From positions 65,853,601 to 65,917,600 of the forward strand of contig NC_088102.1 in NCBI RefSeq assembly GCF_036370855.1: a stretch of DNA of 64,000 nucleotides. The letters run 5' to 3'. The notes beneath the pieces were generated by a model. The model saw only the letters and a list, made by a program, of their open reading frames with translations, was not told where the DNA came from and searched no databases. Positions 3,001 through 64,000 of the stretch are shown piece after piece; position 1 is the stretch's first letter; the number at the start of each line of letters is the position of its first letter. This stretch comes from Dromaius novaehollandiae. Lineage: Eukaryota > Chordata > Aves > Casuariiformes > Dromaiidae. The translations under genes and the position numbers were made by a program.

Positions 3001-6000
3001 TGTATACCTCACCGCTCTATTTCTGTTGGGAAAGAGAACTACTTTGTTATATAGCTGTCACTTTCTTCATTACTTGAAATTCTGTTCTCCCATCAGAGGA
3101 ATGACTGATAATTCTGATACAGTCTTTAGAACTCTAAAAACAATATTTTACACATTTCAAAGTGCAGTGAGTAAACTGAGACAAACTGAAGTTAAATGAC
3201 GTGACTAAGCACAAAAGAAAAGATCAGAGTGCCAATGTTTGAAAAGCTAGTGTGTTGCTGAATTGAGAGAATATTAATATTGCAGTGTTTCACTTTTATA
3301 ATGAGACTATTGTTACTGTGTGCAATATGAACAGCTTTTTGTGTGGTTTTTATTATTTGTGAAATTTAAAATTGATTTATCTTGCTTATTTGGAAGTACT
3401 AAATTGCTCCTAGGGCAGCTTATTGTTGTTAAGAGAGATGGCTACTGTTGGATGTCCAAAGTGCAGATGCTTCAGTTTAGTGATGTACTTTGAAAATTTC
3501 ATTTTCAATTCATGGCTGGTGGAGATGACTATTTTTTAAAAAATGGAGAAAAAATAGTAAGTAACAGAGAGGTGGAAAGATGAGGACAAAGGATTGGGAG
3601 GAACGGAAGATAAGCTCTGTGGATGTTTGCTTTTGCCTCCTTTTTCTACCTCTTCTCATTCTTTTTTCTCTGGAAAAAGAACGTCATTTGAACCAGTAGC
3701 GGCCCTTTGTGTACCGTTTTACTTGTTATGCCTATTTATGAACCTTGCAAACACTTGCATGAAATTTTTGCTCGTATCTGCTTGTAACAGCTTTTTAGCA
3801 TCTCAATTTGTGGTAATTTAGCTTCCAAATTGGTGTTCCTCTTTGGAAAGGTAGTAAACAGAAAACTCAGCTGAAACACAGGGAAAAGAGAGCAATACTG
3901 TAAGAATATAGTAAATACAGGAAGATACTAAATAACCAAATTGTTCTGCTTGTAAAAACTGGTATTAAAAAGTCAGTTCCTGGGGGGAAAAAACCATTTA
4001 TTTATGTATTTATTTATATTTTTTGGACAGTTGTTGCCAGTTAGATTATCCTGCCTGCCTTTGTTCATAGAAGCAAAACAGCAGTCGTGATGATGCTTTT
4101 CTCTTGCTCATCTGTTTTTCTTCAAATATGAACTGTGATCAACAAAAGATTATCTCACTTTTAGGTCCCCTTTACTCTTTTAATAGTAGTTCTTCTGAGT
4201 AGATTGGAGACATTCTTCAGAGTACATTGCAGATACTTTTGACATAAATAGTAAAAAAAATATTTTTTTTCTTCTTAGTTTTTACGACAAGAAGGCAGCA
4301 ATTCATGAAGCACTGTGCGACAATATTGATACTCGCTCTGTCTTAGAAGAAATGCGTTCATTAGTCAGTCAGAGCAACTCCTATATTGCTGCAAAGAAAT
4401 CTTCCAGACAAATGCCAAACAGACTTCTTTTAGAAAACATCAGTTCCTATCTCACTCAAATGCTAAAGGTATGTCATAGCAAGTACTGAAGTTGCTATTG
4501 CACTGTGCAATTACTACTGTTGTATTTTTGAAGTGTGTAGGGATCTGTACGGTCTTTGTTTAAATCTTGCAGGAATCTAGAGACCTTCTCTTCCCCTGCC
4601 CCACCCCCCAAAACCCACAAATTCCAGTGCTTGTTGCAGCAGGAACAATTTGGAGCCCTTTATGTTATATTTTAACTTTATTTAATGTTTTGTTGAATAT
4701 TATGAAGCCCCTAATACATACAAGGAAAATTAGATAGTAGAAAAAACTATGAAGTCAGATTATCAAATCTTACAGCATTAAAGCTGGACTTGAAAGTCAA
4801 TGATTGGTATGCTGTATCAATTGAAAAAAAACAGAACATCTCTTACTAGAGCAATGAATTGTGGGTTAAATCAACTGGGTGTCTTCGAACCTCTAGTACC
4901 TAATGATTTTGCTTAGTTTTCACATACCTGTTACTTAATGTATACAACTTTTTTTCCCCTTGACCAGATATTTGGTGCCATAGACCATGATGATGCAATT
5001 GGGTTTCCTGTTGGTGGAAATAGTCAACACATAAATGTAAGTGAAGGACAAAGCACACTGCACAAAATTACTCTGTGTCCTTTTGTAGCCCTTTGAAAGC
5101 TTACATTAGATAAAGTGATTACATTACCAACATGTTGCTGAATTCTGTTCTCACAGCTTATAACATTTGAATCTGAAGCAATTAATTGGTTTAGGAGGCA
5201 GATTTTTTTCTTTTACAACAGTTGTTTGTTTTTTGTTTTGTTTAATGACGGACAAATTGTACAGCAACCAGAAAAAGAATTATCTTGTCTTCTGAATGAT
5301 GAGTGGTTAAGAAAACCACATGTTGACTACAGACAGTACATACTAGAGTCTAAAGACTCATTACAAGTATTTGAATGTTAAGTAGTCTCAAAAATATAAT
5401 TATACTGATTAAAGATCCTTGTGGTACACCAAAAAACAGCCTGGAGGCAGCTGGAGTTTCATTCTCATTTCGGTCTCTTTTCCTGATCTCATTTGTAACC
5501 ACAGAATTTATCTGGCGTTTGAAGGCTGTTCTGTTTTGGGCACCCAGCAGTACCACTGTGGTGCAGAATTTTCCTGGGAATACTTGGGAGAAGCCTAATG
5601 AAAGTGCTCATGGACCCTGTAGTAATAGTGACATTTCATGGGGCATGTATGAGAAACAACTCCATGTGAAAAGCTGTCAACTTTGTGCTGTGTTCATGAT
5701 GAAATTTTGACTTGAAAAATGGCAGTGATCTGTCCAAGTGTTTTTCTTTACGTGCAGCATCTGATATCTAGTAGCTTCTAATGCCATTCTCATACAGTCT
5801 TGCATTCAAAGATGTGTTAAGTGCACCATGCGTTTTCCTGTGCCTCCACAAAAATAAATAGTTGAAACATTTGGGGTGTAATAAAAAAACCCTTATAATC
5901 ACCAAAGAAAGAAAAAATCACTTGTGATTGAAGAAGGTAAATGAACATCCACCTGATATTTGCCTGGGCAAGTACTTATGTTGCTGTGCTGTGGAAATCT

Positions 6001-29646: not shown

Positions 29647-32600
29647 GTATGTTGGACTATTTTATTGAAATTAAATTTATGCAGTATGTATTTGCTAGTA
29701 TTTATTAACAAGTAATATTTACTACCAGGTGAAGGAAATAATACCAAGCAAGCTAAAGGCATGGTTTTATTTTCTAGTTTTTATAGCTTTTCTAGAGCAA
29801 ATCATAGTATTTTTTAACTTGGTGTCTGTTTAACTTGCTATCTGTGGTGCTGCAGTAGACTCTTTCAAGGCTTGTACTGCACCAGCGTAAGCGGGATAAC
29901 TTAGTCTGGTAACTAATAATGTCCATTTGCATATGTGATAATTGTTTCTCCTTTTGTGTCTGAGTTAATATTCCTTTCAGCAATTTCCAACCTATATTCT
30001 GTGACCTGTAAACCATCTGGAAATATGGGAATACTTACTGACTGCTGACTCTTCTTGGGCCCTTTCTTACTCCAGCAGAGGAAATACAATGGAAGATATT
30101 GTGGGGGGAGGGAGCATCTCTTCCTAGAGCAAAGTGAACGTTTTTACTATTAATCAAAACAATTTGGTGTGGAAATTGCAATCAAAGAGCTTTGAGCACT
30201 TGTTGATCTTACTTTTTTACCTCTGTTCTTTCTAATGTGTTTCTTTATCACTTACAGAAAAAGCATGTCTTGTGTTTTTGCATGTGGGGTAATAACATTC
30301 TCCTTTACAGGGTGACCTAGTGCAGAGCAAAGGCCAGCCAGTCATGTAATGAGATGACTTTCTATGTCTGAAGTTTTCTGCCTTGCCTTTGCTTTCTGCT
30401 CATCGTAGGAGAACTAGTGTCTTACCTAACTTTTGTTGTCAGTTTTGAGGAGTTTGACACCAAAAAAATGTCTTTTAGTGATACGCGTGTTTATAAATCT
30501 TGCCCTGTAGTAAACTGAAAATTCAGGATTTTTTTATGCTTAAATATTAACACTTCTACGAAATGATTCCTTTTAATATGTTAAATTTCTAATTCTCTTA
30601 GTAAAGCAGAAGATACTGCTTCAGATTCTGTGGAGGCTGCTAAAAATGCAAGTGACAAAAAAGGTAAGAAATAAGTAGTAGTAGTGCAACAGTGCAAAGG
30701 TGGGGTAAACCCGTTACCTTGTGTATTGAAGCTCTTTTATCTACAATTCCAATACCTTGACACTCAAGATTAGATAACGTTTGTTATTAAAAGCAAAGCA
30801 GTGTTTTTTAGGCTAATTGTTCACTTTCTGTTAAGATACTTCCTCTTTTAAGCTGATGTTTTATGTGCTTAGAGCAGCCCGGAGAAAAATAAAGGGTTTA
30901 TATCTGTAATAGTGAAAATACTTTATGTATAATGTATATATGTGTGTGTGTGTGTATATATACACATACTGTCTAGCATCCATCACTATTGAATGAAATA
31001 AACTAAAGCCTTTCAGTGAGGCCTGTCTAGACTAGCTTTTAATAATATGCAACTTTCAAAGTTATTATTAAAGTGAGGAGTCCTGCATGTGTGCTGGTTC
31101 TTTATGATCTCATTTGTAGGAAAATGCATCTTTATAAGAATGTCTTTTCAAAGCTTCTGTTCTTTATTTCAAAGGTCTGCAGATAACTATGCTAAATGAT
31201 GCTTAAACTTTAAAATTAATATTTGTGCATGCAAAAAAGCTGCAGTTCTATTGTTATTAACTTGAATACTTGAATTTGTTATGTATAAAACATTGGTATA
31301 TTTTGCTATGCAGTTACTGGATTTTTTTTAAGAAAGTGTTAATGACCTGCAATTGGAAATAACATCAGTTGGTATATACCAATGACTAATTCAGATTAAG
31401 GAGAAAAAGAACAATAGAAAAGTTTCAAGTTAACGTGTGATGTGCAGTTTAATGATTTTAATGGCTGGAGGGAAGAGCAGGGGGAAAGAAAAAAGATTTG
31501 AAAAGCAAATGTGGTCTTCCTGTTGTGATCACTTGTGCAGTTAGTAGTGAGGATTTTTAACCCTTAAAGCATTTTAGATCTGAACTCCCTTGAAATCACC
31601 TTCTGCAGCGGTGGTGCTTGGACTATTTGAGATGTTCTAGAAATTATTAGTGATCAAGTAAATGGTTGTAGTGCCAGTATGCTTTTTTTTCCCTACAGTA
31701 CACAAAGGTTTTTTCGGGGGAGGAGGGGTTGATCAGTCTTTCAAGAGTAAGACTAAGTAGAAGAAAATTCATGTGTCTTGAAAGTATAATTTGGTAGTTC
31801 TTCTCCAGCAAATTTATGGGTGGCTCGTAAACTGGAGCTAGTATATAGGGAGGATCAAGAAACTCTGATTTCCACCTTCTTACATACCAGGGAAGACAGG
31901 AAATCTGCTCATATCATCTGTGTGCTGTTTACTTCGAGCAGCAGAGTTTTGGTACTTTTCCAAAGAGAAGGATGCGTTGTTATCCAGCTTTGTCTATAAG
32001 AAATCTGAATCTGAAGTAATTTTGCTTCTCTTGTTAATGTACTGTATTGGTGATATTTGAGAACTAGAAAATAGCTAGTACTTTACTGTGACTGCTGTAA
32101 AACAGATGTAACATGACAGGACCTCTATGGATATATTCAGATTTGTTTTAAGAGTGGCTTTCTGTCTTCGTAGAAAAGCTAGCAGACCAAGTGATGCAAA
32201 ATCCACAGGTCCTGGCAGCTCTACAGGAACGGCTTGACAATACAGCGCTCACCCCTTCAAGTTATATTGAAACGTAAGTACAGTGTCTAGTACAAGTCTT
32301 GAAAGACTGAAAGCATAGTAGAATATCATTACTGCATAACGAAGGTAAGAATTTGGAACAAATAATTACGAAAAATGGTTGACTTACAGCATGATTCAGT
32401 GACCTGTTTTTAGAAGAATGACGCAAATTCTAATTTACTTGCATGAAACTGAAAACAAGATTTTGTCCAGTGTGGTATTTCCTTTGGCTGTTATGGTTTC
32501 GGTTCGAAATAACTTAGGTTAGCTTTTCCCTCCCTCCCCATGCTTTTGTGACTGTTTAGCCTGTTAGGGCATGTGCTGCGTTGATGGCAGATTTCTATAA

Positions 32601-35600
32601 AATTGTTATCAGATTTGTACTAGAAAATTTCAGGATCTGCAAAGCTATTTTTTTATCCCTCAGTTTAAATCTTGGCTTATATTAACTGTAGAGTAGACCT
32701 GCTATGAGCCACACTTTTGAATTTTACCTTAAGTAGAGGTTAGTGTTTTTATTTCTTGACTAGGGTTAGCTTTTTTTTTTAAGAGCTCCTTATTATTACA
32801 AATGCTAGAAAAAAAGTCCTTTTTATCTGACTGTATAAGCTCGTAATAATATCAAGTACAGATGGGCAGTGTGTATGTTTCTGAATATGACCCATGACTC
32901 CAAGCTTTTCCCTGCAACATACACAATTCTTTTTCATGGATGGTTTAGCACAGCTCTAGTTGCATAAGTTTAGGTGTAAACAACTTTATTCATTTCAGAT
33001 ATCTGAAATAAATGGGGAGGGTAGTGACACAGGGAATGGAACACCTTTTGAGGACAACCTGGGTAGGAGAAGGGTTGCCCCTTGCCCCCGCCCCCCCCCC
33101 CCCAAAAAAAAAATGATAATAAGCTTTGAAAAAATATGTATGTTTGACTTACACTGCTTATGGCTAAGTCCATTTTTAAATAAAGGGTTTATTTCACTTT
33201 ATGTTAAATAATAGTGAGACAACTAATTTCCTAAGCTTATAGATTTGTTTGTTTTTTAGCTTACCAAAAGCAGTGAAAAGAAGAATTGATGCCTTGAAAC
33301 AGCTCCAGGTGAAGTGTGCCCATATAGAAGCTAAATTCTATGAAGAAGTACATGATCTAGAGAGAAAGTACGCAGCGCTCTATCAACCCCTTTTTGATAA
33401 GGTAGGAAGACCATATATATCTTTACAGAACTGTTTTTCTCCTTATAGCTGAGTCAGTTTGTAATAAATATATTTAACTGTGCTTATGTCAGTAGCTCAG
33501 CTAGAGAAAATGTTAATCTTCACTTATATTTTTAACTTTTCTTGGACAGAGAAGAGAGTTTATTAATGGGGAAGCCGAACCTACAGATGCAGAGTCAGAG
33601 TGGCACAGTGAAAATGAGGAGGAAGAAAAACTAGCTGTGAGTAGAAGTTGGGCAATGAACTACACAGTTCACTGTTGTGACAGCTGTAACAGATTTTTCA
33701 GAATTAATTGCTGTACAGCATTTCCCATTGAAGAATTCATCTTTTTGTAGAAAAAGGTTTTATCAGTAATGTGTTACTCCAATGAACTTTGTCCGGTGAA
33801 AGCATTTAAACATGTAATTTAGCTTCTGTTTAAGCTCATAACTTAAGCAAATTGAAGTGTCGCCTTTTGCACTGTTCGTAACCTGTTAACAGTATCTTCC
33901 TGATAATGGGTTCCATTCCAGTGCTACATCATTCCCCAAGATAATAGAAGGCTGGCTGTTTTTCTGCCTGTCCCCTTTATTTTGGGGGACATAATTAGCT
34001 TTAATTTCCATTAAACACAGATTTGACACACAGATGTCTCCTAGTCACAAAATGGAATTGATCTAGTAGCATGTGTGCTGACTACTGACTTCATACTCCT
34101 CTATTGAGGAGAAGATATCTAGGTTTAGGAAAGATGCTGTGATAAGTAGGCTGCTTGTTACTTTCCTATAGTTGTTTTAGCGCATACTTGCAGCTTGAAC
34201 CTTTGCCTAAGAGAAGCGACCTACTTACGATGCCACGTTTGCTATTCTCTCAGGTTTACTTTGCATCTTTTCATTGTCCTGTCTCCCTTCAGTTTCCTTT
34301 GGAGACTTCTGTTTACAAACTGAATTAATCTCTCTGTATTTTTTACTGGTCTCCTGAGACTTAGCATGAGACAGTATTCCACATGCATAAGCAAGATTAT
34401 TTGTTAGGCTTTGTGTATATATAGCATTGACTGGCAACATTCCACGCAATTGTAAGAACGGAAACAGGTCTAGATGACAAGTAAACTGCTGATTCACTCT
34501 CTTGACTAGTCATATCCCAGATGGCTGCTATTTAAAAAAAAAAGTGTCTGTTTGCTGCTATCTAGTGGTGTAAAAGGAAAAGTGCAATACAACTAATTCA
34601 GATTGCAAATTTCCTGTTTTGTGGAATGGGGAAGTGAGTCAAGCCATTCATTTTTGTTAACATTTGAACTCACTTTTGTGAGGGAACCCTGCATCATAAA
34701 AGGTTAACCATTCAAGACAGCATAACAATGAAAAATAATCACTTGATAGTGGCAAACTCTGCCAGATGTTCTGCAGAATTTTTGGGAAGACAAGAGTGTT
34801 TCTGAGGACAGAGGCTAATTTTAAATTTTAGATAGAACACTAAATGATGCATGAGACTACAGGGAAGAGATGAATTACAAATACAAATGTATTTTTATTT
34901 TTTCATTTGTGGAAAAGCAGAAATGCTTTTTTTTTTTTCTATTTAAGTTACTGCAACTGTCATTAAATCTATTTACTATTTGCAGACAAGAATTGCAAAA
35001 GAACTGAAAACGAGTTTGAATTCATTGTGTATACTCCAAGGTGTATGAGTAAACCTCTCATGTCTCTGAGCTTCACTTACAGGGAAAGACAGTTGCTTAC
35101 ATTTAAAAAGCTCTTTGAACAAAATTTCAGGGATGGCTAATGTACTGAACATCTGCTTATTAAACATATTGAAAAGTCATGGTTTCATTTCTTAAATGTT
35201 TCTTTATTTGTTTCACAGGGAGACCTGAAAAATGTAGTGGTAATAGAAGAAAAGGCAGAAGCAGAAGAGACAAATCTCAAAGGAATTCCAGATTTCTGGT
35301 TTACAATCTTTAGAAATGTAGATATGCTAAGTGAATTAGTACAAGTAAGTGGTGTGTTTTGGGGTTTTTTTCCCCCCTCTGAAAAGGATAACTTCTGTCA
35401 TGTGTTAAACTGATGCTCCTTTTTTTTTCCCAACTACTAGTGTTTATATGTTGAATGGGTAAAAGACGAAAGCTTATGGTTCTTCAGAATCCTTAATATT
35501 ATTCCTTAAGATGCTTGGGAGGCTAGCAATGGACAAGCAGAACAGCTGACCCACATTTCTAAACAAGTTTTTGATCATTTTAGAGATGATCTTGTAACAA

Positions 35601-38600
35601 CTTCTGTAGACAGTAAAATGCAGGTTTAGACGCTGCTCACAACAGATGTTCCCCTGTTGTTTTCTTAACTTAGTCCAGGATTATTATTTTTGCAAGGATA
35701 ATTTTTTTAAGTGTACCTATGGATTGGTTGAATTAATGTTAAACATTTTTCTTGTTTTCCCCTCAGTTATGTTAACTGCTTTTAATGCTCTTAAGCAATA
35801 ATACCCTGAAGCCTGTGCTCATCAGCAGTAGAAGTCATGAATGAAATATTTCATTTTTGGTAGTGTTCATGCAGCCTAACAAGGTAGTACTTCTGGCTAC
35901 TGAAGACAAGGCTTAATGGTTGAGAATTTGGCACATGATAGTTGTACCAAACCAGTCATGCAGAATTGGCATCAATATCTGAACTTCAGTTGAAATCTTT
36001 GAATAAGTACAAGGTCCAGTTATGTTACAAGAGCAGGTGAAGCAAGTTAATTAGGTTAGATTAAAATGTTGCTCTTCTAAATACTGCCTGCTCAATAAGC
36101 ATTTTTCTCTATAGGAATATGATGAACCAATCTTGAAACACCTGCAGGATATTAAAGTTAAGTTTTCTGAACCTGGACAGCCTATGGTAAGTTGTTTTTT
36201 TTTTTTTTTTTTTTTTTTTTTTTCCTAGTGTTTCTCATGAAGGCTGTAGGAATTATGTGAGCAGCAGTTCAAAATGTTTTCATTCCATTCTGTTTTGCTG
36301 GAGTGTATGGGAGGTGCTTTCCAGGATAGTGTATCCATGCTTTGGCTTTAAAAATTTCTCTCCAACTTTCCTGACCCTTTTCTGTCTTATCCTTAGCCTT
36401 ATCTCTATCATTGTTACAGTTTCTAAATTCTGGTTCTGCTCAGTCTACGCTAGTTTTCACTTTCATTCTTTTTCTTTTAAATTCCAAATAAGCCATTATT
36501 AGCAAAGTGAAATGGCTACTTTTGGGTCAAAAATTAATCTGTTGTGGAGAAAATTGTGTGCTACAGAATACATCATCAAAATAAGAAATGAAATATATGT
36601 GACAGTTATTTTAATCAGAAACAATGATGATGAATACAGTGCCTCTGCAAAAGTATAGAAAACAAATTAGGTAGCCTTTAAAAGTGTACCTAATGAGTAA
36701 TTTTAAACTTCAGGTTTGACTTTTTTCAGAAGTTATTTGTCTACAAGTTCAGCACACAGTGTTTATCTTGCAGATAACTGTGTAAAAAACAAATTTTTCT
36801 GTTGTCATGCAGTTAATTCATGCAGGCTATACTTATTCCTTAAACCTTTCTTAAGGAGGAGGCAGAGAGAAGAATGGGATTCAAGCCTACGCATTCTCTC
36901 TTTAAACTTCATCTTTGTGGCTTCTTCCTCACATATGTATTTTTATTTTGCTGAGTTTTATGGAGTTGTAGTCATCTGATAAACAGTCTAAAATAAGCAG
37001 AAGAGATGTTTCATTGCAGAATCAAGAAAAAGATTGATAGACATTCTCCAAATATAAAGCAAAGTTTTTGGTCCACGTTGTTTCTCCTGCTAGTACCAAA
37101 AACTTGAGTTGATAATATGCAGGGGGAGTGGTAGGGATAGAGACAGACTGGGAATTTTTAAATTCTAAAATATTACCGTGCCTGAGGGAGTGGGCATGAG
37201 TTTAATGAAGAACTATTTAAGCATGAAGTATTCTAGAAATACCTTGAAGCATACCTATTCAGTGGCATTCAGATAATCTGAAGAATAGTTGTTTTGAAAT
37301 ACGACGCTTTTATTTGTTCTTATTCAGTTTCTTTTACAGTACCTTAAGTTGAAGATCTTCTGCTCTTAGGACACCAGTGGATTTATTGTCTTGCACTGTT
37401 CGTAACCTCTTGACAGTATATACCTGTGAATAGGTTCCATTCCAGTGCTACATGAAATCCAATAATGGAAGGCTGACAAATTCTGTGTCTCTTCTGTATT
37501 TGGAGACAAATGGATGCATTCCTAACCTCTTGAATGAAACCTGCTCTCCAGTCTTGTATGAATGTATTTTCTGATTATTAAAAATTGCTGCATTGTGTAT
37601 TGCGATTGCTAGTTTTGCAGAAAGCTTGCATTTCTGGCGTGTAACAAAACCACTAACTCTACTGGGGATTAAGTTGAAACCAGAAGAAATACATAATTGT
37701 CAGGAATTTCTGATTTGCCTTGACTGTGAGGGATCAACTGTAGTTATTGTCCTTCAAAAGCAGATTTGTCTCATTACACTAATACATGGGTGCTTCATGT
37801 AATTTCTGTTCACTGTAGCCTATATCTGAGCTTTTAACTAAAGCTTAAATGGTTCCCTTTGTTTACTTTGTCATGTATATACGTGTGTATATATATGCAT
37901 ATATTTGTGCAAATATGCATAAAAATAGAAGTCGGGCACAATAAGGGCTCCATGTATTTTCCTGTATTTCACATTAAAGCTAAATTTGTTTTGAGATTGA
38001 TCTTGGATGTCAGGATGCTTAGCTAGCATAATGAAACCTTGACGACCAATCTGGGTACATGACTTAACTAGCTTAAAATAAGGAAGATTTTTGAACTTAG
38101 AACACTTTCTCATACTTTAGGAAGAATGTAGAAATACATGTGGTTAACCCAAATATGATCAGAAATGCTTTCTTCAGGCTCTAAGTGGTTAAGATACATA
38201 TAGCCTTAGTTAGACTTTGTAAAGTCAGTATCTTTTTGCAGGGTATTCTACTCTCAGATGAAAAAACAAAACTAGTTTATGGTAGAGAGCACTGTTTAAC
38301 TACACTGACTCCTGCAATATAAACTTTTAAATTAAAAAGTTTGTTTCAGTCTTGTAAGACTACTCAAACACTCAACATTCCCCCCTCCCCTCCCAAACCC
38401 CCCTGCCCCGTTCTTCTAAAGTGGTTTCAACCAGGCTTTCATTGAATAAGAAACCAAGACTTTTCCTGAAGTACTTATTTTTAAGGTTGCTTTTAAGATA
38501 GCAGTAAGATATGTGAAGGTGAAGGAAATGTAGTAGGTTACCTGATTATAATGTGAATGTTAATGCTAACCAAGGCTGTTCTCATTTTTGTACTTTAGAA

Positions 38601-41600
38601 TTGGTTCACATTCTTCATTTTCTGCTTTTGTTAGAGTGAAAGACATATTTGCTATCAAGTTCTTAATTTTTCTGTGTTCAGAGTTTGATGGTATTTCTGA
38701 TGATTCACTCTTCCAAAGATGAAAATAAGTGGTAACTATAATTGAACTTTCTTCTAGTCTTTCTCATTAGAGTTCCACTTTGGGCCCAATGACTACTTTT
38801 CTAATTCAGTCCTGACAAAAACCTACAAGATGAAGTCAGAGCCAGACAAGACAGATCCTTTTTCATTTGAAGGACCTGAAATAGTTGATTGTGAGGGGTA
38901 AGGAAAACTTGAACTTAAAAGATGTTTTGAATTTCTAGTGAATATTTTCCAGGTGCTGTTTTCTTTTAATATGGTAGTGATTAATGACAATAAAACTTTT
39001 GCTGATTTATTGTAGCTGGACACTACCTTGTACTGAGAGAACATGATGTGTTGTTTTTTTACTGGTCTTGCTGTTTGAAGAATCATTCTCAATTGCTGAG
39101 ATTTTCTGGAACAGCTGTAATCATTTCCTCAGTCTCAAAACTCAAATGGTTGGGTCAAAGAGGTAGTAAAGTACCTGAGTGGGGGGGAGGAGGGGGGTGT
39201 CTGTTCTCTATTTCCCCTACAGTGATTACTCTGATATGACAAACTATGTAGCTCTTTTGTTTCGGGAAATATTTGGTATGTCCAACATGTATATAGCCTC
39301 TAGCACTGCAGTGCATCTTAAACATCTTGTCAGGTACATTTAAGTTGTCAGTGTGTCTAAAATTAGCTTTATCTAGAGAATGAGAAACCATCCTTGCCTT
39401 GATGTCTGTCACTCTCTGCTTAGTTCCTCATCTCCTTTGATGTCTTATATTAAAACGCTATCTCCCATATGTTGTCTTTAGGTGTACTATTGACTGGAAG
39501 AAAGGAAAAAATGTTACGGTTAAAACGATCAAGAAAAAACAAAAACACAAGGGCCGAGGCACGGTTCGGACGATTACTAAACAAGTACCTAATGATTCTT
39601 TTTTTAACTTCTTCAACCCAATAAAGGGTAAGTAAGAGTGGGTATTTGGGATTCTTAAAATATGCAGTGTTTGTATTTAAACCAGCTTAAATGTACAAAC
39701 TGTATCTTTGCTGCTGCACTGTGTACTTACTTCTTACTGGAGGAAGGTAGCAGACTACAGTTCACTAGCTCATTTTGTTCTTGGCAAAATTCTGCAGGAA
39801 CAACTGGCGTGTAGTGTAAGCAGGATTCCTGATTTGGAGGGAGGCTCTTGTAGAATCTTCTTGAAGTTGCCCTGTTTTACCGTGGGATGGCTCCATACAT
39901 CAGTTTGAGGTTTTTAATATGAGAAGAACTTGCTTTCAGTTCTGGTCTGGTGCCAGCATATTGGTTTCACTTAAACCTTTGTGTTAAGTGAAGGAACCCT
40001 CTGTGGTTTCCTCTGGTTAAATTAATGATGCCTGATGCTTCATATACCTTCGTAATGTTACTAGTCACCTAGTGTTAGATGTGTACTCGTGTATTTTAAC
40101 AGTTTAGATGTATTCCAAAAACACTATCTTTTTGATTATCATCTCCTGTTGAACTGCTTCTTTTAGCTGTGTTTGAAAAACAGTATATTTTGGACATCAG
40201 AGACTCATTAAACAAAACTGTTAGTTCTTAAACAGTCATGATTTTTTTTTTCTTTTATGAACTACCTGCCCTTTCTAAATGCCATTACAAATTCATCTTT
40301 ATACAGGAATGAAGCAACTGATAAGTATTTCCAAAGTTGGAGTTTTTAGTACAGAAATGTCCTTTAATTTAAAAGGGGAAAAAGCCTTTTTTGCCTATAG
40401 AACATATGTAGAGACTGATTTCAGAAAGTTATATGATCTGTTTGCCTCAGGTGGTTTTTATATTGACTTCTTTAAGTACTTGAAGGACAGTCAGTCATAG
40501 TCCGGAGGTAGCTGTATAAGACTGACATCTGTTGGTATTTGATACTTGCTTTTTGAATTTGCAAACAGATTGAGTTCTCACTTTTTTGCACGGTAGGATC
40601 ACAGTTGCAGCATCTGAGTAGAGGAGGGAAACCTCATTTTCTTTTTGTTGGGGTTATGTTTAAACAACGCAAAACCAAAACAAAAATCCCTGTTCCTTAA
40701 TTCAGTCCTGCACAGAAAATTTTTAACCATGTTTTGGTTAAGTCTGTGTTGATTACAGTACCAGGCCTTTTCTCAGCAATAACATTTTGTCATGAGTTTG
40801 CAATGTACCTGGTAGCAGCTATGTTTGTAGTGCTGTAGCAAAGTAAATTACCGCATTACTGCAGATAAAAGATTCACTGTTGATTGAGAGAGTGTCTGGT
40901 CTGTATGTATTAGGAATCCATCTCGTAGGAAGAATATTTCCTGTGTAAACACTTCTGTCGTCAGAATGGTAGCTTTGGTGTTCTTACTGCAAGACTTAAT
41001 TCTTGCAAGTATGATGTGTTGACTTGAAAGTTCAATTCCTTTGAGTTAGACTTGAGATGAATCCAAATGGTATTTAAAACTCTAATAGTTAGCCCTTGAA
41101 GGCTGTGTAATCCCAGTGTTTTCTGGTGTGAGAAGGTCTTTATACTGTACTTTGCAATCTTGAATAAGTGAGCTAGACTGTATAAACTGTTGTTGAATTT
41201 ACTCTCTTTTCTCTTTGTAGTCTCTGGTGATGGAGAGTCATTGGTGAGTTTACACTTACAAAATTCCATGATTGCTTTGCTGTATTTTTTTGCTAAACGT
41301 CCCTGTACTGACTCTATTCAAATTCTTTTATCAAGAGACTGTATTTTTTATGATTGTTTTTGCTTTTGTGAGAATTGAGGTTAATCTTGATAAAACAAAA
41401 GGTACTGACTTCTCTTGGTAATCTTGTGATATTTTGCTATTATGCATCTTGCTAACGCAATACATCATCTCTATAATAATCGCTGTTGGGAAAAAATCGT
41501 TATTTTCCCTAGCATTCAGCTCTCCTGTATGGCTGGTAACAGACTTCCTGCAAAGCAATCTAAAGCTAATGTCAGGAGTAAAAACAAGCCAAATCTATAT

Positions 41601-53442: not shown

Positions 53443-55887
53443 GAGTGGTTACCCTTACAGCAACCTAGTAGAGGAAACTAAAGTTGATCTGTGGGGGCAC
53501 GCTATTTTGGTGTGATCTGCATTTTTGTAGCCTCTAATTCTCCAAAGAAAAAACTGCCCCAGTTCTGGGTCTGAAGGTTGAACCATCTGGAAGCTTTCCA
53601 AGTGAGATTAATTTGGGAAGTCATGTATTTGGGCTGCGATGTGATTAATCGCTTCAGTTGTCCAGGCAGAAAGCCTTGAAGGAGCCACGCTGGTGCACTC
53701 GCTGATACAGAAATGGCAAACATCGTGCAGGCAGCTGACGGTCAGGCGGTGGGACTGGACACTGGGGAAGTCTTTTGCAAGGGCACTGGCTAGTCCTGAG
53801 GCGTGATCAGGGTACCTTCGTGGGACTCCGGCTAAGATGTTTCGGGTAACCGTGACAGCTGCAGCCTTTCAGCCTGATTTCCTTCAGTTCAATTGCTTGG
53901 GATTTTTGCTATGACCCAGTTAAAATTTATATTAGCTAGAACAAATTAAATGGTCTGCCAGTTTCCGTTCTCCTTATTAAACAAGCTTTTCCTGTTTGAA
54001 GATAAAGGCGAGTCTTAATAAATTCATTCTCAGTTAAATGTTTCCTTTATGGGATGGGAGCTCCTCAAATGAATGAGGTCTTTTGAAGTCTTGAAGCGAA
54101 GCCTAGAAGAGGCTTAAGCCTGAGAAGGGCATTTAAGAAGAGGTCAGACTAATCATGGTGCAGGGGAGTCACCGTTTCCTTGCAAACTTGGTGATTCAGA
54201 AGCTGAGCTTCAGACGTAAGAGCAGCTCCGACTGCCGGAAGCTGCGCTGAGTTGGCGCATAACCTTATGAACTTGCACTTGGAAGTGTCACTTTTTTTTT
54301 TCCCTGAGGCAGCTTAGCTCGATCCTGGTTGGAGGCTGTACAGGTGGGACAGAAGTGGCCTTTCTAATTGAGCCTCTGAGCATTTCCAGTGCGTTACGCA
54401 AGCTGTATGTCCCACTGGAGCCAGAGCACAGTCCTCCTAAACCAAGGCTCTGTGTGCTTGGAGAAGAGGGGGCAAAGCCTAGTCCTGGCCTGGCACAGCC
54501 GGGGGGGGGGCTGCCGTCTTGCTGCTGGTGCTTCCCCAGGGCCTCGCTTCAGCTGTGGGAGACTGTGAAGTTGACCTATGAGGCCTGCAAATCCTCTGCT
54601 AATAAACCCATTATAAGTGGCAATGTCTTCTGTAATAATTAAAAAAAAAAAAAACAAAAAACAAAGGGGGGGGGGGTGCTGTATTCATGCTGCTTCATTC
54701 TCTGCCTCGTCCTGTGGGTAAATATCTGTGTTAGATCCCAAACAAAGTCTGGGAGGCGGTTACTTCATGTCCATACAGTACTTGATCAGTGACCTGGGTC
54801 GGACAGAAACGTCACCTTACCTTTCCCAGACAGTTTATAGTCACAACACCAGTGGCAGACAGAGCTGGGGGGGTTCCCCGCCTCCCCCCCCCCCACATGC
54901 CACGTTGCTGTCCTGAGCACCTCCAGTCTCCTGGGGGCCAGCGATGGGAAGCCCAAAGAACACAGGTTGCACATCGCCCAGGTCTGAGAAGCAGCCAAAA
55001 AAAGAAAGACCCCCCCCCCAAAAAAAAAGGAAAAAAAAAAAAAAAGAACCCCCTGGCTCTCTGCTGTTGATGGAGGGTTACGTGAAGCCCAAGCTGCTGC
55101 CGGCCCCCAGCCCTGTCCCTAGGCCACTGTCCCCCTGCGCGCAAGTGGCAAGTTCAGCACAGCTGCCTGGCGAGCCGTCCCGGCTGGCCACGTTGGGAAG
55201 CGGTCAGCTGGGCTGACGGGAGAGCGGATTTGGCCCAAAACGGGTATCAGAGCCACTGACAAAGACCCCAGCTAAGGCCGGAGCTGGGCCGTGACGTGTT
55301 GGCAGTCCGAGCTCGCTCACTGCGGAGGGCAGGCGGTGCTCAGGGGCGCGAGCCAACAGGTCGAGGCATTTTGAGGCAGAGAAAAACCAGCTAAGGTGTA
55401 AGTGCTGCTGACAGCCCCCTAAGCTTTTTTCATCGCTCGCCGCTTCAAAAAGCAGGGGAAAACAAATTACGCGCGTTCAAGCTGAGATTTACACAGGGTG
55501 CACGGCTGCCTAGCCTGCGAGGCCATCAAAAAGGCACGCTTTGGAGCAAGAGCACCTGCAGAGAGCACCGGACTGTTATTACACCGAAACAACAACAACA
55601 AAAAGGATTTTAATAAGCACAGGTCAGGTCAAAACATAGGGAAGTGCAGCAACACATCCGCGTATGGTGCTTGCTCAGGCGTTTCCAAGGCCGGCGCGAG
55701 GCGGGTGAAGCCCTGCCCGGCTCTGCAGCAGCCGTGTTGCAGCAGTCCCAGCACGCGCCGCGCTGCCTTGCCGGCCTCCGCAAAGCTGAGCTGCCTGGAG
55801 GGTCCTGTGGTTACGCAGCTGGCTTGGCATTTGGCGGGATCTCCTACCCAAGGCAACCGGAGGGGCCTGCTGCAGGACGCGCTCGGG

Positions 55888-56197
55888 TCGCGCTGAGACC
55901 TGGCACGTTCAGCGCAGCGTCCTGGGAACTGGGGGGGGTCGCGCTGAGACCTGGCGCGTTCGGCGCAGTGTCCTGGGAATTGGGGGTCACGCTGAGACCT
56001 GGCGCGTTCGGCGCAGCGTCCTGGGAATTGGGGGGGGGTCGCACTGAGACCTGGCGCGTTCGGCGCAGCGTCTTGGGAATTGGGGGGGGGGGGGGGGGGG
56101 GGGGGGTCGCGCTGAGACCTGGCGCGTTCGGCGCAGCGTCCTGGGAATTGGGGTCGCGCTGAGACCTGGCGCGTTCGGCGCAGCGTCCTGGGAATTG
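55888..56197. repeat. GC-rich minisatellite, six copies, G-tract spacers
   Basis: Six tandem units share a core of about 40 bases beginning CGCTGAGACCTGGCGCGTTC and ending in a GTCCTGGGAATT-like block. The GCTGAG/ACTGAG starts are at 55892, 55943, 55991, 56043, 56111 and 56158, giving spacings of 51, 48, 52, 68 and 47 bases. Most of the spacing variation comes from the G run that ends each unit; the fourth unit ends in 25 consecutive G (56082-56106). Cores are nearly identical, so the array is young or homogenised. Confidence 0.92.
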
Positions 56198-60189: not shown

Positions 60190-60319
60190 GCCTCGGGGCG
60201 GCGCGGGGCGGGGCGGGGCGCGGGGGCGGCGGCTGCCGGGGGAGGGCACCGGAAGGCGCCGGGCGCTGATTCATTGCAATAAAGCGGCGGCGGAGCGGCG
60301 CGGCGGGGCCATCGCCGCC

Positions 60320-60357
<38 letters not shown>

Positions 60358-60396
60358 GCCGGGAGCCGCCGCCGGAGCCGGGGCCGCCCGGGGAGG
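60190..60396 (+). promoter_or_regulatory. PHLDA2: PHLDA2 promoter and 5'UTR region
   Basis: Overlapping Sp1-type GC boxes (GGGGCGGGGCGGGGCG at 60205-60220) are followed by an AT-rich TGCAATAAAG near 60285-60294, which could act as a weak TATA element. A GAGCAG repeat (six units, about 60321-60356) probably lies in the 5'UTR. The CpG island extends through the coding exon. The transcription start is not resolved. Confidence 0.6.
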
Positions 60397-60801
60397 ATGA
60401 AGATGCAGGCCGAGGTGATCCGCGAGGGCGAGCTGGAGAAGCGCAGCGACAGCCTCTTCCAGCTGTGGAAGAAGAAGCTGGTGGTGCTCACCGAGGACAG
60501 CCTGAGCCTCTTCCCCGACGGGCACAGGCGGGCCAAGGGCAAGGAGCTGGGCTTCGGCTCCATCCTCAAGGTGGACTGCGTGGAGCGCACGGGCAAGTAC
60601 ATCTACTTCACCATCGTCACCACGGACCGCAAGGAGATGGACTTTCGCTGCGCCGACCAGAGCTGCTGGAACGCCTCCATCACCATGGCGCTCATCGCCT
60701 TCCAGAACCGCCGCGCCATCCAGCACTTCCGCAGCCGCCAGCCGCCGCCGCCGCCGCCGCCGCCCGGCGCCCCGGAGCGGCGCCTGCCGCGGGCGCCCTG
60801 A
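60397..60801 (+). CDS. PHLDA2: Pleckstrin homology-like domain family A member 2
   Basis: Small cytoplasmic protein that is almost entirely a PH domain able to bind phosphoinositides. In mammals it is an imprinted, maternally expressed restrainer of placental growth. The single coding exon gives 134 residues against 152 in human. The PH fold spans about residues 7-110: [48 protein letters not shown], and the C-terminal helix with the conserved Trp in [19 protein letters not shown]. The tail differs from mammals: FRSRQ is followed by eight prolines encoded by a CCG run (60742-60765). The ATG at 60397 has G at -3 and A at +4, and an in-frame second Met follows at codon 3. The stop TGA is at 60799-60801, seven bases before the exon end at 60808 (donor GTGAGC). 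Confidence 0.96.
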
Positions 60802-60850: not shown

Positions 60851-61430
60851 CTCTCTTTTCCCCCCCTTCTTCTTTCTTTCCCCCCTTCTTCTTTCTTTCC
60901 CCCCTTCTTCTTTCTTTCCCCCCCCTTCTTCTTTCTTTCCCCCCCCTTCTTCTTTCTTTTCCCCCCCTTCTTCTTTCTTTTTCCCCCCCTTCTTCTTTCT
61001 TTTTCCCCCCTTCTTCTTTCTTTTTCCCCCCCTTTTCTTCTTTTTCCCCCTTCTTTCTTTTTCCCCCCCTTCTTCTTTCTTTCCCCCCTTCTTCTTTCTT
61101 TCCCCCCCTTCTTCTTTCTTTCCCCCCCTTCTTCTTTCTTTCCCCCCCTTCTTCTTTCTTTCCCCCCTTTTCTTCTTTTTTCCCCCTTCTTCTTTCTTTT
61201 TCCCCCCCTTCTTCTTTCTTTTTCCCCCCCTTCTTCTTTCTTTTTCCCCCCCTTCTTCTTTCTTTTTCCCCCCCTTCTTCTTTCTTTTTCCCCCCCTTTT
61301 CTTCTTTTTCCCCCTTCTTTCTTTTTCCCCCCCTTCTTCTTTCTTTTTCCCCCCCTTTTCTTCTTTTTCCCCCTTCTTCTTTCTTTTTCCCCCTTTTCTT
61401 CTTTTTTTCCCCCTCTTTTATTTCATTTTA
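60851..61430 (+). repeat. Polypyrimidine minisatellite, about 20-base unit
   Basis: Tandem units of the type CCCCCCTTCTTCTTTCTTTT, with C runs and T runs of variable length, fill about 580 bases (roughly 28 copies). The plus strand is pure C and T throughout. A 303-codon open frame rich in Ser, Phe, Pro and Leu crosses it and is a by-product. Confidence 0.92.
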
Positions 61431-63315: not shown

Positions 63316-63500
63316 CTATAGGCCTCTCTCCTTCAGCGGGATGTTACTCTTTAAGAGGTAAACGAACAAACCGACGTTGACAACTAGCTGCAAGCACCCG
63401 AAGGAGGAGACGCCGAACTGCTTGTACAGGAGGCCGCCGACGGTCGGCCCCACGGTCCGGGTGAGGGGCTGGACCGAGGCGCAGATGCCCAGCATGGTGC
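63316..63500 (-). CDS. SLC22A18: Organic cation transporter-like SLC22A18, terminal exon only
   Basis: Major facilitator superfamily transporter with 12 membrane segments. Only the last exon is inside the window. It reads GTMLGICASVQPLTRTVGPT, then VGGLLYKQFG, a hydrophobic final helix LQLVVNVGLFVYLL, and ends NIPLKERGL with TAG at 63316-63318. The acceptor TCTCTGCAG on the minus strand ends at 63501, and the exon begins in phase 1 (the first Gly codon is split). The TVGPTVGGLLY block is typical of the family's C-terminal half and matches vertebrate SLC22A18. Its position next to PHLDA2 in convergent orientation matches mammals. Upstream exons lie beyond the right edge. Confidence 0.9.
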
Positions 63501-64000
63501 CTGCAGAGACACCGCGCGTCAGCCCGCCGCGGCCCCCTTCGCCCCCGGCCCCTAATAGATAAACCTGCAGACGGGGACGAAACGCGGCGCGCGGGGAGGG
63601 CGCTCGCCCCGGGGGGGGGGGCCGCGGCCGGACCCTCGGCCCAGGCGAACGAGCCCGCGGCCGCCTGACTCTCCGGGCAGGTTTCGCAGTTACCTCCTTC
63701 CCTCCCGGGAGCTGAATTAGCCTAATTGCTAGGTACAACCGCCAAGCTGGCTCTTACGTCTGAGGAGGAGCTTCTTTTTTTGGCCCTTTTTTTATTTCGG
63801 CGCAGAAACCCCTTCTCCCCGCAGGCCGGGTTCTCCCTTCGCACCGCCGCAGCGACCGCGGTGCTGAGAAAGAGCAGCTCTGCGCACGGGGCTTCAGGTA
63901 GAGCCCTCAGACCGGTGCCCTAGAGATGTAAATCTCAGCTTTAAGTGAACCTGCAGGTTTTTGACAGGGTGACAGCGAGGGTTTTGCACCACGGCAGACG
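63501..64000 (-). other. SLC22A18: SLC22A18 intron (partial), GC-rich
   Basis: Sequence beyond the acceptor is GC-rich with a G run near 63610. I do not see the penultimate exon before the window edge. The open frame continuing upstream of the acceptor on the minus strand is intronic. Confidence 0.6.

Follow-up and report, generated by a model that had tools for sequence, protein, structure and literature searches.

Two SNORA54 (ACA54) H/ACA snoRNA genes are located in separate introns of NAP1L4 within a 64,000-nt stretch of the emu genome (Dromaius novaehollandiae, contig NC_088102.1, positions 65,853,601 to 65,917,600 of the forward strand), hereafter called the window. Very probably, they form a redundant paralogous pair that guides one conserved 28S pseudouridine and that arose by old copying within the host gene. 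The arrangement is an ordinary one that is already known, since the chicken ACA54 homologue GGgACA39 was listed in 2009 with two isoforms, in introns 7 and 9 of NAP1L4 (Shao et al. 2009, PMC2653536, Table 2).

Assignment of both copies to the family is based on the Rfam SNORA54 covariance model RF00430, which has a gathering score of 60 bits. Copy 1 (33867-33994) and copy 2 (37391-37511), both on the plus strand and 3524 nt apart from start to start, match this model end to end (positions 1-129) with scores of 95.2 and 91.9 bits, respectively. Box H/ACA snoRNAs are defined by the order hairpin, H box (ANANNA), hairpin, and ACA box 3 nt from the 3' end, and the folds and box positions place this architecture in both copies. 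The H box reads ACATCA in copy 1 (33926-33931) and ACATGA in copy 2 (37450-37455), the ACA boxes occupy positions 33989-33991 and 37506-37508, each 3 nt from the 3' end, and a GCACTG/CAGTGC stem is common to the two. When folded whole, neither copy was equalled in stability by any of 200 dinucleotide shuffles (z-scores of -5.09 for copy 1 and -3.28 for copy 2). The original prediction had described two SNORA54 copies with shared sequence blocks, this stem, an H box and an ACA box, and had named a covariance-model search as a check; both the description and the family assignment are confirmed by the RF00430 scores and the boxes. With the same model, no third SNORA54 within the window reached the gathering score, and no further member was detected in the 1.47 Gb genome besides the two NAP1L4 copies among the best 57 of 39098 candidates scored.

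Several other Rfam matches between positions 30001 and 41000 fell below their gathering scores and were rejected as cross-family similarity or chance. They comprise a SNORA46 match over copy 1 (43.3 bits, gathering score 80), two mir-297 matches (30.4 and 26.8 bits, gathering score 90), and a snoTBR17 match on the minus strand (19.7 bits, gathering score 40).

The host gene was assigned by tblastn with the human NAP1L4 protein sequence, and splice sites were placed by eye. Copy 1 is located 230 nt from the 5' end of a GT..AG intron (33637-35218) that follows the coding exon at 33550-33636, while copy 2 is located 1204 nt from the 5' end of another GT..AG intron (36187-38757) that precedes the coding exon at 38758-38898. 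Two further coding exons lie between the copies, at 35219-35344 and 36115-36186, the latter matching at 95.8% of 24 residues; the host introns are thus two apart, and all these exons and both snoRNAs are on the plus strand, the sense strand of NAP1L4. The Pfam NAP domain matches three joined exons, and it also matches four of the five NAP1L4 exons tested singly, including those at 35219-35344 and 38758-38898; the exon at 36115-36186, with only 24 residues, has no Pfam match alone. Accordingly, the location of the pair in separate introns of NAP1L4, as originally proposed, is borne out by the flanking exons and the NAP domain.

Elsewhere in the window, an open frame on the plus strand (60283-60801) encodes a PH domain at residues 45-126 (Pfam PF00169, 27.9 bits), and we take this frame to be PHLDA2. 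The position of NAP1L4 upstream of it is reminiscent of the arrangement that we assume for the imprinted 11p15.5 domain of mammals. An open frame on the minus strand (63316-63753) has no Pfam match, and its C-terminal part presumably resembles SLC22A18. Just past the PH-domain frame there is a polypyrimidine minisatellite (60854-61429, period 22, about 28 copies), and positions 55885-56197 hold GC-rich tandem arrays whose units measure about 47-51 nt and were alternatively assigned a period of 100.

The two copies have diverged unevenly along their length. Their first 63 nt, comprising the 5' hairpin and most of the H box, align without gaps and show seven differences (89% identity), all of which fall in columns 19-42, a block of 24 apical columns of stem and loop; the probability of such clustering by chance is about 6e-4, with the block picked after seeing the data. 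The 5' basal stem, both strands of the 5' pocket, and the first four H-box bases are identical. On the fold of copy 1, the 5' hairpin contains 19 pairs, of which 16 are the same in both copies, one alternates between U-G and U-A, and two, in the upper stem, are broken in copy 2, whose own fold gains one other pair in this hairpin. The 3' hairpins can be aligned only loosely (local score 23, reached by 1 of 500 shuffles), and the 300-nt flanks of the copies do not align (observed scores reached by 403/500 and 130/500 shuffles). Because the 5' pocket is unchanged while the 3' hairpins align loosely and the flanks not at all, the duplication looks old, with the pocket kept.

The original prediction had argued for the function of both copies from matched, compensatory changes in their 3' basal stems. 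The stems indeed differ, and each pairs with itself: copy 1 has a continuous 13-pair helix that reaches into the ACA box and pairs its first A, and copy 2 has TCCAA/TTGGA. To speak of matched stem changes is, however, too strong for one pair changed on both sides (C-G in copy 1 versus U-A in copy 2, judged by eye with the ACA box as the starting point) together with a longer stem in copy 1. A 13-pair helix was reached by 2 of 1000 mononucleotide shuffles, and the longest 3' helix of copy 2, at 8 pairs, is no better than chance (272 of 1000 shuffles). Folded alone, the 3' hairpins gave weaker signals than the whole copies, with z-scores of -3.07 for copy 1 (1 of 200 shuffles as stable) and -2.47 for copy 2 (4 of 200). 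The pairing of the 3' strands was calculated at -15.1 kcal/mol for copy 1 and -4.7 kcal/mol for copy 2, and swapping the strands between the copies gave -4.2 and -4.1 kcal/mol, so that the exchange costs about 11 kcal/mol for copy 1 and only about 0.5 for copy 2. The changes are therefore compatible with maintained stems, yet as proof of function they are thin, with two pairs of copy 2 broken in the 5' hairpin, and compensatory change was rejected as the decisive argument on the pair comparison and the near-zero swap cost for copy 2. The pocket, basal stem, and boxes, which are unchanged, make the better case for function.

The same comparison bears on whether only one copy is functional and the other is a pseudogene of similar sequence. 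The broken upper-stem pairs, the weaker whole fold, and the shorter 3' basal stem of copy 2, with its helix length within chance, are what such a loss would leave. Nevertheless, we regard it as very unlikely, since copy 2 scores well above gathering over the full length of the family model and retains intact both strands of its pocket, the basal stem of its 5' hairpin, and its boxes despite flanks that have diverged beyond alignment. Moreover, the Table 2 entry for chicken indicates that two copies have been kept there too (PMC2653536).

If both copies are functional paralogues, their common 5' pocket would set the target. The candidate left guide strand is TCGT (33876-33879 in copy 1 and 37400-37403 in copy 2), and the candidate right strand is TCCATTC (33912-33918 and 37436-37442), both on the plus strand. 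With an assumed 28S sequence, these strands would presumably pair over 4+7 nt with the stretch around human U3801. This placement leaves three target bases between the guide duplexes, two being the usual number for H/ACA guides, and it requires that pairs 12-48 and 14-46 be opened in the minimum-energy hairpin. The 4+7 split agrees with the guide given for chicken GGgACA39, which is listed as directing modification of 28S-3311 from a 5' pocket of 4+7 nt, with isoform a alone shown in the table (Shao et al. 2009, PMC2653536). Human 28S Psi-3801 appears alongside SNORA54 in a published table (PMC9941101), and a report on mouse Snora54 attributes to it, by CMC mapping, pseudouridylation at 28S positions 3478 and 4221 (PMC12101510). 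Because two target sites are thus reported in mouse, a second pocket may exist.

The suggestion that the two emu copies may carry different guide pockets is not supported by these data. For the 5' hairpin it is rejected because the pocket strands are identical, and no clear 3' pocket was seen by eye in the minimum-energy fold of either copy. A related possibility is that the pair has divided its duties, the common 5' guide being retained in both and the diverged 3' hairpin giving one copy another target or protein partner. The strong divergence of the 3' hairpins would fit such a division, as would their different forms, a continuous helix in copy 1 versus short stems with small loops in copy 2, and mouse Snora54 is described as having a Lyar-mediated role that is independent of pseudouridylation (PMC12101510). 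We consider this very unlikely, given that neither 3' fold presents a clear pocket, that Table 2 of the chicken study lists only a 5' guide for GGgACA39, and that only for isoform a (PMC2653536), and that drift accounts equally well for the 3' difference.

As to the origin of the pair, it had been proposed that the duplication was peculiar to this lineage. This is not supported, because chicken likewise carries a pair in NAP1L4 introns two apart, according to the table of Shao et al. (PMC2653536). The emu genes resemble chicken GGgACA39, compared by table entry and not by sequence, in family, host gene, the number and spacing of copies, and the use of a 5' pocket guide. They also resemble mammalian SNORA54/ACA54 in family, in the NAP1L4 host, and probably in the 28S target. 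For mouse, one intronic site is described, between exons 8 and 9 in an exon numbering that varies by source (PMC12101510), versus two sites here; for rhesus, a table row for SNORA54 contains the number 2, of uncertain meaning. In chicken, 6 of 62 H/ACA snoRNAs were reported as duplicated, and Shao et al. considered that new snoRNAs in chicken probably stem mainly from intragenic duplication (PMC2653536). Their RT-PCR section covers nine guide H/ACA snoRNAs and does not name GGgACA39 in its text (PMC2653536).

The snoRNA may have reached its second intron by retroposition and not by local DNA duplication, which would be compatible with the pair as we interpret it. The homology ends at the snoRNA boundaries, as expected of a retroposed copy, but no A-rich tail was seen by eye, and a search for a target-site duplication found nothing beyond chance, the longest words shared by the flanks, of 5 and 7 nt, being reached at 783/1000 and 133/1000 random places. 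In addition, Shao et al. mention, as data not shown, that no evident snoRNA-retroposon-like counterparts were seen in chicken (PMC2653536). These missing marks are not decisive because an old event would have erased both the tail and the target-site duplication, and we regard retroposition as unlikely, a minor alternative to local duplication.

In the scenario that we favor, an old copying event inside NAP1L4 would have produced two paralogous intronic SNORA54 genes. Both copies are probably expressed and processed, each being freed from its spliced NAP1L4 intron and then bound by dyskerin, NOP10, NHP2, and GAR1, the complex that binds H/ACA snoRNAs. Through the pocket of the common 5' hairpin, both copies would direct pseudouridylation to a single 28S uridine (28S-3801 in human and 28S-3311 in chicken), while the 3' hairpin would serve mainly as a scaffold and has presumably drifted. 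The two copies would most likely be redundant and add dosage. The pair represents no new kind of system; it provides a clean example of a snoRNA duplicate retained in one host gene, with the guide pocket frozen and the second hairpin drifting, and it helps to date snoRNA duplications.
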